64,000 bases of DNA from NCBI RefSeq assembly GCF_009939295.1, contig NZ_WVIC01000016.1, positions 1 to 64,000 of the forward strand, in the 5' to 3' direction. A program made the translations under genes and the position numbers. A model generated the notes under the pieces. It had not been told where the DNA came from and searched no databases. It saw nothing but the letters and a program-made list of their open reading frames with translations. This stretch comes from Petrachloros mirabilis ULC683 (GTDB lineage: Bacteria > Cyanobacteriota > Cyanobacteriia > Thermosynechococcales > Thermosynechococcaceae). This document shows positions 2,800-56,214 of the stretch, piece by piece. The stretch's first letter is position 1, and each line of letters opens with the position of its first letter.

Positions 2800-3591
2800 A
2801 TGTCAAGTACTAACACTGGTATTGAATGGACTGATAAGACCTGGAATCCCACCACTGGCTGTAATAAGGTAAGTCCGGGGTGCCAGTACTGCTATGCTGA
2901 AGCAATTACAGAGCGGTTTCCTAAGAGCTTTTCACAAGGTTTTAAGCTGACACTGCATCCAGAGCGATTAGAGCAGCCAAAGAAGTGGCGAAAGCCCAGT
3001 CGGATTTTTGTCAACTCCATGAGTGATCTTTTTCATCAAAATGTGCCTTTTGCCTATTTGCAAGAGGTTTTTACGGTGATGAAAGAGACTCCGTGGCACA
3101 TATACCAGATTTTGACTAAGCGTGACCAGAGCCTAGCAGAATTAGCACCTCAGCTTGAATGGTCTGAGAATATTTGGGTTGGTGTATCTGTAGAAAATCA
3201 GAAATATACTCACAGAATTGATGCTTTGAGACAAGTACCAGCAAAAGTTCGTTTTCTTTCATGCGAACCTCTTTTAGGCTCACTGAGCCTAAATTTAGAG
3301 GAAATTGATTGGGTGATTGTTGGTGGTGAGTCTGGACATCAACATCGTCCTATGAATCCAGAGTGGGTGAGCAATATTTTGCGCCAAACACGAGAAGCTG
3401 AGGTCGCTTTCTTTTTCAAGCAGTGGGGAGGACATCACTCAAAAGCTGGTGGCAGAATGCTTGATAATAAAATCTGGGATGAAATGCCATCTGCTTGGTA
3501 TAACCATGTTAATAAGTGGCAAAAACAGAAGACTTCTAAGCATCTCAAGTCTGATGGGTTAGAACAGAGATATTTAGTTTCTGCCAAATAA
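2800..3591 (+). CDS. DUF5131 (phage Gp37/Gp68) family three-Cys-motif protein
   Basis: About 263 residues. The N-terminal TGIEWTDKTWNPTTGC leads into a C-x6-C-x2-C cluster (CNKVSPGCQYC) followed by YAE, the three-cysteine motif that resembles a radical-SAM Fe-S binding loop. Further family signatures are IFVNSMSDLFH, QILTKR, WVGVSVEN, FLSCEPLLG, WVIVGGESG and FFFKQWGG. The ATG at 2800 is preferred over the GTG at 2776 because it begins the conserved sequence and follows an AAGG. A tcmP gene starts 13 bp downstream, the standard partner. Codons are A/T-richer than in the neighbours, suggesting transfer. The family's biochemical role is not established; a DNA repair or modification function resembling spore photoproduct lyase is sometimes suggested. 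Confidence 0.85.
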   Translation: MSSTNTGIEWTDKTWNPTTGCNKVSPGCQYCYAEAITERFPKSFSQGFKLTLHPERLEQPKKWRKPSRIFVNSMSDLFHQNVPFAYLQEVFTVMKETPWHIYQILTKRDQSLAELAPQLEWSENIWVGVSVENQKYTHRIDALRQVPAKVRFLSCEPLLGSLSLNLEEIDWVIVGGESGHQHRPMNPEWVSNILRQTREAEVAFFFKQWGGHHSKAGGRMLDNKIWDEMPSAWYNHVNKWQKQKTSKHLKSDGLEQRYLVSAK

Positions 3592-3604: not shown

Positions 3605-4486
3605 ATGAGTCGGCTTGGAAGTGAAGGTGAGGATGTTATTGGACGCTGGTCGGAGGAAAAGTTAGATTTACTAGCGAAGTACCTCAAAGCTTACTCTGTC
3701 ATCATGAATGAACAGAAGAAAAGTTGGCTCAGAGCATATTACTATATTGATGCTTTTGCCGGCTCCGTTAGACCTAGAGCAAAAGAGGATGAGCAACGCT
3801 ACATTGATGGCTCTCCTCTACGTGCTTTGCAAACAGAACCTCAATTTGATGGCTATTGGTTTGTTGACGTTTCTCAGCAACGAGTAGAACGCGTAGAGGA
3901 ACTGCGTGCAGAATTTTCAGATTGTGTAATTAATATACGTCAAGGTAATTGTAATGAGATCTTGTGTAATGAGATAGCTCCGCAAATTCCCTACTCATCT
4001 AAGCGGCGAGCATTCGTTTTCCTAGATCCTTATGGTTTACAAGTGGATTGGGAAACAGTAAGAGAACTGGCAAATACCAAAACCTGCGATATTTTTGTCA
4101 ACTTTTCAGTCATGGGTGTTACTCGTCTCCTTCCCAGAGATCAGAACCCAGAACCAGAAGTAATAGAGCGCTTGAGTAAAGTTATGGGGAGTACAAATTG
4201 GATTACTGAGATCTACCGGGAACTACCGGAGATTCAGCTAGACCTATTTGGAAATCCAACGGAACCTACGTCGAGTCGTGACACAATTCAGGCTGAATGG
4301 CTAGCAAGTTTGTATACAAAACAACTGCAAGCTCTCTTCCCACACGTTAGCAGACCTGTACTCATGCGGAACTCGACAAACTCGGTGCTGTATGCGTTAT
4401 GTCTGGCAAGCCATAAACAAACAGCCATTAAGATCACAAACCAGATCTTTGATCGATACGAAAGATTGAGAGATCTGGGAAGATAG
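3605..4486 (+). CDS. tcmP: Three-Cys-motif partner protein TcmP
   Basis: About 293 residues, 13 bp downstream of the DUF5131 gene and almost certainly co-transcribed. Visible hallmarks are WSEEKLDLLAKYLKAY near the N-terminus, YIDAFAGS near residue 50, and RRAFVFLDPYGLQVDW near residue 135. The last two look like the Rossmann core of a methyltransferase-type fold (FAG and DPYG loops). A VNFSVMGV segment follows. TcmP is defined by its co-occurrence with DUF5131 proteins, and the pair is widespread and patchily distributed, as expected of mobile or defence genes. The molecular activity is unknown. A/T-rich composition matches the upstream gene. Confidence 0.85.
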   Translation: MSRLGSEGEDVIGRWSEEKLDLLAKYLKAYSVIMNEQKKSWLRAYYYIDAFAGSVRPRAKEDEQRYIDGSPLRALQTEPQFDGYWFVDVSQQRVERVEELRAEFSDCVINIRQGNCNEILCNEIAPQIPYSSKRRAFVFLDPYGLQVDWETVRELANTKTCDIFVNFSVMGVTRLLPRDQNPEPEVIERLSKVMGSTNWITEIYRELPEIQLDLFGNPTEPTSSRDTIQAEWLASLYTKQLQALFPHVSRPVLMRNSTNSVLYALCLASHKQTAIKITNQIFDRYERLRDLGR

Positions 4487-4540: not shown

Positions 4541-4550
4541 CATAACAGAT

Positions 4551-4657
4551 ACAGCAGTTTGCAAATCAATGGAGTACATGTGTTGCAGGGGGCGCTGCTC
4601 CCTGTGTGGGGGTGGAACCCCCACACCCCGTACCTCACTTAGGTGAGAACCGCTATA
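4551..4657. repeat. Family A dispersed repeat, copy A1
   Basis: An imperfect palindromic element ending in AACCGCTATA, containing ATCAATGGAGTACATG and the hairpin GGGGGTGGAACCCCC. It is in the opposite orientation to copies at 20441-20548 and 34229-34336. Its left end (ACAGCAGTTT) has drifted. Confidence 0.8.
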
Positions 4658-4756
4658 TACATCTGGCGTAGATTGTGACAGCTGGGGTGGCTCTGAACCC
4701 CTTAGAGGCCGTCTGAAAAGCCTCATTCATCCCTGCATTAGCCCCCCCGATCCCCC

Positions 4757-4975
4757 AATATTTGGCTACGGTGTACACACATCTCTAGTTCTCCGTGTTC
4801 CACGCTGCATTCGCCCTCTACATCCCCCATTCTGGGGGACTGTGAGATATTCAGAACCCCCCAAATTACGCCCTTCGGGCACGCTTCGCGAGGGGGGGCA
4901 GGGGGGCGAGTGTAAGGATGTTGGAGGATTGTAGTCATCCTTTTAAGATTTGTGTGTACACCGTAGCCAATATTT
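4757..4975. mobile_element. 205-bp MITE-like insertion with target-site duplication
   Basis: Perfect 18-bp terminal inverted repeats begin GGCTACGGTGTACACACA (4764-4781) and end in its reverse complement (4951-4968). AATATTT directly repeats on both sides (4757-4763 and 4969-4975). Removing the element and one AATATTT restores a CCCCC-A/T-GGGGG junction like that of the intact family B copy. There is no coding capacity; the interior carries a fragment of family B and a CGCCCTTCGGGC hairpin. The mobilising transposase is not in this window. Confidence 0.8.
4868..4892. repeat. Small hairpin repeat (ACGCCCTTCGGGC type)
   Basis: ACGCCCTTCGGGC followed by ACGCTTCGCGAG. Small GC-rich hairpin units of this kind are dispersed in many cyanobacterial genomes. 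It lies inside the MITE-like element. Confidence 0.5.
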
Positions 4976-5018
4976 GGGGGAAGAAAGCCAAAAACTCTGC
5001 TCATTTCCCCCCAGAATT

Positions 5019-5042
5019 ACGCCCTGCGGGCATGCTGCGCGA
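5019..5042. repeat. Small hairpin repeat, second copy
   Basis: ACGCCCTGCGGGC followed by ATGCTGCGCGA sits within the interrupted family B copy, at a point where the copy at 49371-49529 has none. This indicates an independent insertion of the unit. Confidence 0.5.
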
Positions 5043-5205
5043 GGGGGGCTAGGGGGGCAAGTGCAAAGTCTAAGCAACTTCTCAAACAAGCTCTTAAGCT
5101 GTTAAGCATCTAAACTGCATGTTGATCGCTCTCAAGCCCTTGCTACAAGGGGATTGACCTGGAAATTTAAATGCCGATCAGCTTAGCTCTCTCGGAGGGG
5201 CAAGA

Positions 5206-5760
5206 TCACTCTGGTGTGGGAAAGTGCGCTGGAAATGTCTGCGCGAGGGCTGCCTGAATTTGCTGTTTTTGGGCGGCATCGTATCCCCAGCGATGGAGAA
5301 AATCGACGTAAGTGCCTGTCTCGGTCGTCAGGCTCTGCCAAAGCTGCTCTGCTTCTGCCTGAATTTCGGGTAGAGCTAGGCGCTGAATCAGTGTGACTGA
5401 ACACTGGCTGACTCGCTGGGAACTCTGGGCTAGATCCTCTGCCTGCTGCCGCTGATGAGCGAGGCTCATGGCTGTAGACATGGCTAGATTTTTGATGAGT
5501 AGACTGGCGACTGGCTCTGGATGAGCTTTGAGGGCTGCCACCACAGCGGGGGAAGGATTATCGGCTAGGGGACGCTCATCGGTGAGATAGGCGACAAAGA
5601 AGCCCCGTGCGCCGTTCATGGTCTGCACCAGATCTTCAATCAAAGGCTGTACCTCTTTCTCTGCGACCTCGCCAGTGTCTAGGTGGGTGAGCAGGGTTTG
5701 AGTGAAGGTGATTGCGGCTTCAAAACTAATCGAGTCGGGCACGGTGAGAGAGCCAGTCAT
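5206..5760 (-). CDS. Conserved hypothetical protein downstream of recN
   Basis: 184 residues, soluble-looking and mostly helical (long Ala/Gln/Leu-rich stretches), with no signal peptide, membrane segment or cysteine motif. A strong CCGGAGG lies just before the ATG at 5760. It starts 43 bp after the recN stop on the same strand and may be co-transcribed. GARGFFVAYLTDERPLAD near residue 50 is its most distinctive patch. I do not recognise a characterised family; it resembles proteins annotated as hypothetical in cyanobacteria. Confidence 0.75.
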   Translation of the reverse strand: MTGSLTVPDSISFEAAITFTQTLLTHLDTGEVAEKEVQPLIEDLVQTMNGARGFFVAYLTDERPLADNPSPAVVAALKAHPEPVASLLIKNLAMSTAMSLAHQRQQAEDLAQSSQRVSQCSVTLIQRLALPEIQAEAEQLWQSLTTETGTYVDFLHRWGYDAAQKQQIQAALAQTFPAHFPTPE

Positions 5761-20086: not shown

Positions 20087-20278
20087 ATGCGTTACCACAT
20101 CATGCTGCAATTGGTTGTACTCATCACCATTGTTCTGGCTTTCACCGCTGCCCTATTTGCTTGGCTACAAGAGCGCGACCCTACCCAGACTGAGGTTGAG
20201 TTACCCCAGCCTGGCTTAGAGGCTGTCTTTAATCTACATTCGCCCCCGAACCCTCCGGGGGGCTTTAATCCCTCTTAA
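20087..20278 (+). CDS. Small single-pass membrane protein with repeat-derived tail
   Basis: 63 residues. Residues 5-26 (IMLQLVVLITIVLAFTAAL) form one transmembrane helix, followed by the charged WLQERDPTQTEVELP. Residues 44-63 are encoded by the inserted family B repeat, so the original C-terminus was replaced or extended. The size and topology suit an accessory subunit of a thylakoid complex, but I cannot assign one. Confidence 0.55.
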   Translation: MRYHIMLQLVVLITIVLAFTAALFAWLQERDPTQTEVELPQPGLEAVFNLHSPPNPPGGFNPS

Positions 20279-20344
20279 GTCCCCCAGAATGGGGGATTTA
20301 GGGGGCTAGTGCAAGGCGTTAGAAACTTTCCAAACCGCCTCTAA
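20216..20344. repeat. Family B repeat, subtype II
   Basis: It begins TTAGAGGCTGTCTTTAA and ends AAACCGCCTCTAA, with an internal hairpin CCCCCAGAATGGGGG. It overlaps the 3' end of the small membrane protein gene. Related copies are at 54264-54398 and 56072-56214. Confidence 0.85.
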
Positions 20345-20440
20345 CGCAAGAGCATAAGCTGCCTAAAACTGCGTTGGCGCGAACGAAGCAGAGTTTGTCG
20401 GTGGGCACTCAAGGTTATCTGCCGCCGCCCGACTTCTTTA

Positions 20441-20548
20441 TATAGCGGTTCTCACCTGAGTGAGATACGGGGTGTGGGGGTGGAACCCCCACGCAGGGGG
20501 CACTGCCCCCTGCACCCCACGTACTCCATTGATCTGTAAACCGCTATA
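20441..20548. repeat. Family A dispersed repeat, copy A2
   Basis: A 108-bp element with perfect 10-bp inverted ends, TATAGCGGTT and AACCGCTATA. Its interior pairs GTGGGGGTGGAACCCCCAC and GCAGGGGGCACTGCCCCCTGC as two hairpins. It provides the TAG stop codon of the convergent 126-residue gene. Confidence 0.85.
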
Positions 20549-20924
20549 AAGGCTTTACTTGATGTTCAAACCAGGCCACGATTTGGGGCAAGGTTAGCTC
20601 TTCAATTTCGGTAACTTCGTGTTGGGCAATGGTTTGGAGCGGCACCAGGGAGGCGGTGAGCAGATGGGTAAACCAGTCCACAAAGGAGGCATCCAGATTG
20701 GCCTGGGTCTGCATCTGGGGCTCTTGCTGTACCCAGGTTTTAATTTGCTCAGAGGTGAGGTCTGCGATCGCCATCCCCAACCCAGCCCCAATCTGCTTCA
20801 AGTAGCGCAAACTGTAAACCGTAATCCGCATCGAGAAGCGATCGCGCGTAGGCAAGAGGGTCTGGTCAATCATCGCGCATTCTTCCGGGGTCAGCAAGGC
20901 TTCCAGCGACTCGGATACATTCAT
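20544..20924 (-). CDS. Conserved hypothetical protein downstream of sufR
   Basis: 126 residues, helical and soluble, with no cysteines suited to Fe-S binding apart from a single Cys near residue 16 (TPEECAMID). It starts 20 bp after the sufR stop on the same strand, so it is probably co-transcribed with the regulator. Distinctive patches are LLPTRDRFSMRITVYSLRYL and QIVAWFEHQVKPL. Its stop codon lies in the family A repeat end, so the native C-terminus may have been trimmed. I do not recognise a characterised family. Confidence 0.7.
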   Translation of the reverse strand: MNVSESLEALLTPEECAMIDQTLLPTRDRFSMRITVYSLRYLKQIGAGLGMAIADLTSEQIKTWVQQEPQMQTQANLDASFVDWFTHLLTASLVPLQTIAQHEVTEIEELTLPQIVAWFEHQVKPL

Positions 20925-34201: not shown

Positions 34202-34226
34202 CCCTACCCATTGGTAGGGTTTTCTT
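34202..34226 (+). terminator. Rho-independent terminator of ahcY
   Basis: A 7-bp stem CCCTACC/GGTAGGG with a CATT loop is followed by TTTTCTT, 30 bp after the ahcY stop. Confidence 0.85.
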
Positions 34227-34228
34227 AA

Positions 34229-34336
34229 TACAGCGGTTCTCACCTGAGTGAGGTACAGGGTGTGGGGGTTCCACCCCCACGCAGGGGGTACTGCCCCCTG
34301 CACCCCACATACTCCATTAATCTATAAACCGCTATA
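34229..34336. repeat. Family A dispersed repeat, copy A3
   Basis: It begins TACAGCGGTT and ends AACCGCTATA in the same orientation as copy A2, and has the same two internal hairpins (GTGGGGGTTCCACCCCCAC and GCAGGGGG/CCCCCTGC). It abuts the ahcY terminator. Confidence 0.85.
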
Positions 34337-34355
34337 AAAGGTGTTATCGGTCGCT

Positions 34356-49370: not shown

Positions 49371-49529
49371 TTAGAGGCAGTCTGAAAAGCCTCATTCATC
49401 CCTGCATTAGCCCCCCCGACCCCCCAAAATTGGGGGGAGAAAGCCAAAAACTCTGCTCATTTCCCCCCAGAATTGGGGGGCTAGGGGGGCAAGTGCAAGG
49501 TCTAAGCAACTTCTCAAACAAGCTCTTAG
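49371..49529. repeat. Family B repeat (subtype I), intact copy
   Basis: It begins TTAGAGGCAGTCTGAAAAGC, contains two hairpins (CCCCCCAAAATTGGGGGG and CCCCCCAGAATTGGGGGG) and ends AAACAAGCTCTTA. It starts 1 bp after the mobA stop and probably acts as its terminator region. It is the empty-site reference for the element at 4757-4975. Confidence 0.85.
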
Positions 49530-54263: not shown

Positions 54264-54398
54264 TTAGAGGCTGTCTTTAAAGTCTTGCTCTATATTCGCC
54301 CCCCCATTCTGGGCGGCCTTGATCACACTTAAGTCCCCCAGAATGGGGGATTTAGGGGGCTAGTGCAAGGCGTTAGAAACTTTTCAAACCGCCTCTAA
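54264..54398. repeat. Family B repeat, subtype II
   Basis: It begins TTAGAGGCTGTCTTTAAAGT and ends AAACCGCCTCTAA, with hairpin CCCCCAGAATGGGGG. It fills most of the gap between the HDIG gene and the Crp/Fnr gene. Confidence 0.85.
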
Positions 54399-56071: not shown

Positions 56072-56214
56072 TTAGAGGCTGTCTTTAAAGTCTTGCTCTA
56101 CATTCGCCCCCCAACCCCCCGTTCTGGGGGGCTTTTATCACTCTTAAGTCCCCCAGAATGGGGGATTCAGGAGGCTAGTGCAAGGCGTTAGAAACTTTTC
56201 AAACCGCCTCTTAA
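56072..56214. repeat. Family B repeat, subtype II, upstream of isiB
   Basis: It begins TTAGAGGCTGTCTTTAAAGT and ends AAACCGCCTCTTAA. Hairpins CCCCCCGTTCTGGGGGG and CCCCCAGAATGGGGG. It fills the space between the zinc-ribbon gene and isiB, both on the minus strand. Confidence 0.85.

Follow-up and report, generated by a model that had tools for sequence, protein, structure and literature searches.

A nested, hairpin-rich MITE in Petrachloros mirabilis with IS50-like ends and a likely Tn5-like partner IS in related genomes

In Petrachloros mirabilis ULC683, two ORFs converge (3605-4486 on the plus strand and 5206-5760 on the minus strand; ORFs rather than proven genes), and in the gap between their 3' ends one short repeat lies inside another. 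We asked what kind of element it is, what could have moved it and how it came to sit there. The DNA analysed, a stretch of 64,000 nucleotides, is called the window throughout. The first-pass annotation had described a 205-bp MITE-like element with perfect 18-bp TIRs and a 7-bp target duplication, nested in a family B repeat, and each of the parts it named was present: the 18-bp inverted repeats at 4764-4781 (plus) and 4951-4968 (minus) agree without mismatch, AATATTT stands on both sides of the element, and the family B repeat is split. Allowing up to three mismatches, the 18-bp repeat matched the window twice, against 0.02 matches expected from shuffles. The element carries no transposase gene, as had been claimed; among ORFs of at least 80 aa, the only one to span it is an 88-aa chance ORF (4738-5004, minus strand). 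With the ends as corrected below, the inner element (family A) occupies 4766-4966, is 201 bp long and has 16-bp perfect TIRs (CTACGGTGTACACACA / TGTGTGTACACCGTAG). It is flanked by the 11-bp target duplication CCAATATTTGG at 4755-4765 and 4967-4977; no strand is assigned to the element or to either copy of the duplication.

The interrupted repeat is a family B MITE at 4705-5093 (plus), with TTA flanks at 4702-4704 and 5094-5096, and the family A element landed at the centre of its left hairpin. An unsplit family B copy (49374-49525, plus; TTA flanks at 49371-49373 and 49526-49528) had been taken as the state before insertion. The re-joined flanks of the nest did align with it over the full length with few substitutions, but the loop differs by one base in length (AATATTT at the nest, AAAATT in the unsplit copy) and the other hairpin holds an extra, separate 24-bp insertion. 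Judged by its sequence, the unsplit copy is a paralogue, near to the pre-insertion state and not identical to it. The 24-bp unit is a dispersed repeat: one copy sits within the family A element, in its right hairpin (4868-4891, reading TCGCGAAGCGTGCCCGAAGGGCGT on the minus strand), and the second within that of the family B element (5019-5042, minus). A third repeat occupies the same ORF gap at about 4550-4657, some 47 bp upstream of family B. It has TATAGCGGTT-like ends and relatives in the window near 20434-20550 and 34222-34338, and the copies near 20486 and 34274 carry a CCCCCACGCAGGGGG hairpin; we assume that it may be an IS630-type MITE.

Genome-wide, the TIR 18-mer had 227 matches at up to two mismatches (110 forward and 117 reverse) in 4.12 Mb on 79 contigs, while the reversed 18-mer, used as a control, had none. 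The first-pass annotation had named the lack of any further TIR copy as what would count against it; these 227 matches, together with a full IS in relatives, speak the other way. From the TIR places listed, a subset of the 227, we obtained 59 TIR pairings at fetched loci of this genome, with the overlapping pairings at L124 and L125 included; most measured 178-181 or 203-205 bp with the outer GG and CC counted. Identities between closest copies ran from 0.994 downwards, and some copies are therefore recent relative to others. The 24-bp repeat was found in 19 of the 59 pairings, the L124 copy being counted twice, between ATT and the G-run of the core hairpin or in mirror image, and it explains most of the size difference between the forms of about 200 and about 176 bp. 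These inserts resemble, by description, the kind of small dispersed repeat that Elhai and colleagues reportedly described from cyanobacteria in 2008. That work is cited in the accessible part of PMC3116915. The element in the window itself looks mosaic, as its first 75 bp or so (4766-4840) match the 176-bp form and, over the whole length, its nearest copies are forms of about 200 bp. Elsewhere in the genome, on contig G000:C15, two family A TIRs lie about 5 kb apart (positions 3230 and 8175 of L043), and their outer flanks are mutually reverse-complementary (TCTCCCCTTTTG / CAAAAGGGGAGA), perhaps through an inversion between copies. Short, bounded by TIRs, flanked by target duplications, present in many copies and lacking a transposase gene, family A fits the criteria for a MITE. 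The nested MITE is real and well supported. As an element it belongs to a familiar MITE type, of which it is a variant; what is unusual is its landing habit, together with the frame-shifted transposase gene of its likely partner (described below).

Where the element ends was less simple. Ends at GGCTACGG...CCGTAGCC with a 7-bp duplication, as first proposed, have in their favour that the window element and many other copies show both the GG/CC and the 7-bp repeat. As the choice of duplication length might otherwise have been fitted to the outcome, we fixed the offset of each pairing on inner bases only and then read the junction bases, for which 40 of the 59 pairings were usable. Where the left junction was not GG, the deviating base agreed with the corresponding position in the other copy of the target in 17 of 18 cases, and deviations from CC on the right did so in 13 of 14, giving 30 of 32 together. 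Junction bases that follow the other target copy mark GG and CC as target, and therefore the corrected termini are CTACGG...CCGTAG with the outer GG and CC belonging to the target; the element is 201 bp rather than 205, its TIRs 16 bp rather than 18 and the duplication 11 bp rather than 7. The junction-base test led us to reject the shorter duplication, which we now regard as very improbable. The outer end of Tn5 agrees with these ends at 13 of 19 positions, 10 of them among the last 11. The corrected terminus is independently supported by the end consensus of the IS50 subgroup, CW------Y---CA-A--W- (from the part of PMC2266710 available to us), all seven fixed positions of which fit when the element starts at CTAC; the same seven are satisfied in the ends of the full IS L074 (described below) and in the column majorities of the 59 pairings.

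With the ends set at CTAC...GTAG, 42 of the 59 pairings carried duplications of 8 bp or more with no more than two mismatches, and 17 had no clear duplication. Lengths among the 42 were 11 bp (n = 21), 10 bp (n = 16), 9 bp (n = 4) and 13 bp (n = 1), and exact duplications were of 10 bp (n = 9), 11 bp (n = 7) and 9 bp (n = 2). When left flanks were paired with foreign right flanks as a control, 230 of 3422 combinations passed the same criterion. These duplications and the conserved IS ends also bear on another reading, that of a structural or regulatory RNA or a REP-type repeat and not a transposable element. Such a reading could draw on the strong folding of the family A element (-99.5 kcal/mol, z -7.5), but it leaves the duplications and ends aside, and no Rfam family was found in the window between 3500 and 6000; we consider it hardly credible.

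For family B the genome gave at least 40 rows at 176 bits or more among the 40 of 264 candidates that were scored, two of the rows (C41 and C4) being incomplete. An alignment of 31 rows, two of them from the same place, showed GAGGCCGTCTGAAAAG-type ends, with TNA duplications (TTA, TAA, TGA, TCA) in most rows as judged by eye. Family B has the 3-bp TNA duplication together with GAG-type TIRs, and from this duplication and the GAGGCCGTCTGAAAAG-type ends we take it to be an IS5-like MITE. Three divergent elements resembling family B, alike in core layout and bounded by GAGGCTGTCTTTAA-type ends, also lie in the window at about 20220-20344, 54264-54398 and 56072-56213.

The two families have unrelated ends and a common core. 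Between family B and L024, a family A copy of 176 bp, 92 of 110 columns were identical (84%), with a local score of 122 against a mean of 17.5 and a maximum of 28 in 500 shuffles. The family A element of the window is less alike, scoring 35 against the shuffle maximum of 28. Some family B match was present in 11 of 28 other genomes, many confined to the core. We considered a free-standing core and dropped it, as what adjoins the core in G005 and G016 may be family A-like termini that have diverged. In Nostocales, elements with the same ends carry a different hairpin type, CCCCCCTTAAAAAGGGGGG, and at least two of them (L262 and L273) are inserted in hairpins of that local type; the stretches compared were 10 from Dolichospermum sp. 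ST_sed8 and 3 from Trichormus sp. M33_DOE_039, a set from which records near our own genome may be missing. As far as such comparisons reach, the pattern fits MITE ends being combined with lineage-specific hairpin cassettes.

We then considered the target sites. When the 42 targets were re-joined, at least 8 of 10 arm pairs at the centre were complementary in 12, whereas the same criterion was satisfied at 79 of 127,880 centres (0.06%) in the window as background. At least 7 of 8 pairs were found at the exact centre in 13 of the 42, and at any of 20 other offsets in at most 2. Across the 42 sites, a site's own arms paired better than site-shuffled arms in 5000 of 5000 shuffles. Mean pairing was 5.69 of 10 within sites and 4.99 across different sites, and much of the arm pairing is composition common to the sites. 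Fewer than 6 of 10 arm pairs were complementary in 22 of the 42. The CTCTCCC/GGGAGAG class made up 19 of the targets, and with it removed the pairing signal was weaker: for the other 23 sites own pairing beat shuffles in 4891 of 5000, with 109 of 5000 reaching it. The target of the window element is the family B hairpin, and that of L152 resembles the hairpin of the third repeat. Twin hairpins, CTCTCCCAACATTGGGAGAG, spaced 53 bp start to start and BIME/REPIN-like, were also seen at many places in the genome (for example, G000:C2:65295-65367 and, within L144, G000:C7:131852-131924).

Insertions are therefore enriched at the exact centres of small hairpins. This could arise with no preference of the transposase, if palindromic targets were simply places that tolerate insertion, such as intergenic hairpin repeats. 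The position of the nest between two convergent 3' ends would suit that explanation, as would the supply of landing sites, for CTCTCCC-N3-9-GGGAGAG hairpins occur exact and uninterrupted at 106 sites of the genome (none in the window). Against it, the offset test indicated that insertions strike the exact centre. Moreover, 11 targets of the partner IS introduced below, 10 of them from genomes outside the taxonomic family of the window, paired above the window background (mean 5.09 versus 2.01 of 8 pairs; at least 7 of 8 in 2 of the 11). Three of these (L216, L237, L241) represent a single IS within a single genome, and the set comprises loci with a clean duplication, 17 others being left out. 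We consider tolerance alone an unlikely explanation and continue with a preference for hairpin centres.

An element with no coding capacity would have to be mobilised in trans, as the first-pass annotation had argued, and it had proposed looking for an autonomous IS with the same TIR. Nine of the 29 genomes of the order, our own counted, had TIR matches at up to one mismatch. In G001, two TIRs enclose a 1490-bp IS (L074) flanked by a 10-bp duplication, CCATGCTTGG. Its transposase, P0001, whose first ten residues precede the shift site described below and are read in the wrong frame, scored 350.8 bits against the IS4-family model NF033590 of NCBIfam (cut-off 160), matched Pfam DDE_Tnp_1 and, among PDB entries, found Tn5 transposase structures at E 9.5e-34. 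It also carries the Y(2)R(3)E(6)K motif, read as YKFRWRIERLFAQLK, which is a hallmark of the IS4 family according to the portion of De Palmenaer et al. (2008; PMC2266710) that we could draw on. Of 388 genomes sampled from the class, 24 contained relatives of P0001 at E <= 1e-60, and G303 and G251 have several near-identical copies. These IS are mostly about 1.4-1.6 kb long and end in CTAC[CG]GTGTACACACA or the related CTACTAAGTACACA, CTGCTGTGTACACA and CTGCCGCTTATACA. Among 27 further IS loci (L215-L241), 10 had duplications of 10-11 bp at up to one mismatch, in a scan run with no shuffled control; the remaining 17 were cut, truncated or lacked such a duplication. Together, these sequence comparisons point to a Tn5-like IS4-family element as the likely partner, one that makes 10-11 bp duplications and has ends identical or related to those of family A, and a full IS with such ends in relatives supports mobilisation in trans.

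No such IS turned up in our own assembly, although a MITE need not always have its partner in its own genome. P0001 had no match there, and the family-model search returned no full transposase and only one C-terminal piece (L184; 40.9 bits with the IS4-family model, below its cut-off). An ORF scan of 16 stretches around TIRs, in which the first residues of the frames were judged by eye, gave no obvious transposase. Contig edges inside TIRs (8 starts and 9 ends listed), where an autonomous copy might be hidden, leave a few dozen bases each, and those long enough continue as MITE. With the partner absent from the assembly, the family A copies are therefore probably stranded, or dependent on an IS that is unassembled or lost. 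Cyanobacterial hairpin-rich MITEs lacking a partner IS in the same genome have been reported before, as the available text of PMC3542288 indicates.

The partner transposase gene has an unexpected feature. Of 29 IS loci examined, 24 kept the 5' part (L074, L176, L215-L228, L230, L231, L233 and L237-L241). In every one of these the first codons are in frame +1 with respect to the body of the transposase, so that a -1 shift at a run of A and G connects the first 23 or so residues with the body. The first frame commonly begins with M[ED]NPILIHA...FGDxRLxKRG, and the joint is AAAAGGGGG in 23 of the 24 and AAAAGGGGA in the decayed L233. For comparison across lineages we used one copy per genome, 18 in all from 15 genera, a set that excludes L233 and the repeat copies in G303, G251, G135 and G328; the nine columns of AAAAGGGGG were invariant among them. 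By the rule of the first start, the part before the shift has 23 codons in 11 of the 18 and 24-41 in the others. Unshifted, the first frame meets a stop 8-34 codons further on in 17 of the 18, and in L220 there was none within the 39 codons examined. Third-position variability in these 18 copies was 0.597 versus 0.30 and 0.29 upstream of the joint in the first frame, and 0.579 versus 0.30 and 0.26 downstream in the body frame. Selection on both sides of one invariant run argues for a programmed -1 shift, and this pattern suggests frameshifting by slippage of either the ribosome or the polymerase. RNAalifold found no conserved RNA structure 3' of the shift site, and on the upstream side, where GGAGA, GGTGA, GGCGA and GGGGA all occur, inspection by eye showed no conserved stimulator of the Shine-Dalgarno kind. 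The literature searched, which took in the accessible parts of PMC2246112 and PMC7335449 and lay outside ISfinder, yielded no earlier description of such a frameshift.

Taken together, family A is very probably a non-autonomous MITE with ends of the Tn5/IS50 type within the IS4 family, moved in trans into hairpin centres. A transposase made elsewhere would excise the element at CTAC...GTAG and insert it with a staggered cut of 10-11 bp, preferring the centres of small GC-rich inverted repeats; the nest would have formed when one copy landed in the left hairpin of the IS5-like family B MITE. Cut-and-paste in trans by a Tn5-like IS type is the step that we infer. A wider proposal, to which we give about even odds, is that the partner represents an undescribed cyanobacterial subgroup of Tn5-like IS that would make full-length transposase only through the -1 shift at AAAAGGGGG, cut with a 10-11 bp stagger, favour hairpin centres and give rise to nesting MITEs with host cassettes. 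Under this proposal MITEs that carry the hairpin cassette of their lineage would provide new landing sites each time, and nests would accumulate.

Few DNA transposases have been studied as well as that of Tn5, and one large hairpin-rich family of cyanobacterial MITEs can now be tied, as a likely link, to an IS of the Tn5-like type. Through its atypical duplication length, its bias towards hairpin centres and its conserved frameshift, that partner makes the locus more interesting than its first reading suggested. How cores pass between transposase systems also becomes a question, since two MITE families whose ends are unrelated have one in common.

Among known systems, IS231A has the target GGG-N5-CCC, which differs from the CC(C)-N-(G)GG found here, and the transposase here is of another subgroup. 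The two are alike in belonging to the IS4 family and in having a palindromic target, and the duplications of IS231A are of 10-12 bp (as far as the consulted part of PMC2266710 goes). ISRm22 is likewise an IS4-family element found in REP palindromes (available portion of PMC1525189), but it comes from another host and from subgroup IS4Sa (PMC2266710, in part), and the targets here also include hairpins within other MITEs. The 'type II' MITEs of Anabaena sp. 90 resemble family A in being hairpin-rich and in lacking a partner IS within their own genome (PMC3542288, in the sections available), a likeness by description and not by sequence; here, in contrast, a likely partner IS type was found in other genomes. 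A further comparison is with the IS50 (Tn5) subgroup, which the partner IS resembles in its NF033590 transposase, in having Tn5 as nearest structure, in the YREK motif, in the end consensus and in its length, mostly 1.4-1.6 kb. It differs in two respects: duplications of 8-9 bp are tabulated for the subgroup in the accessible part of PMC2266710, whereas those here are of 10-11 bp, and the same part of that paper lists the absence of a frameshift as a hallmark of the IS4 family, whereas the transposase here is spread over two frames in 24 of 24 copies.
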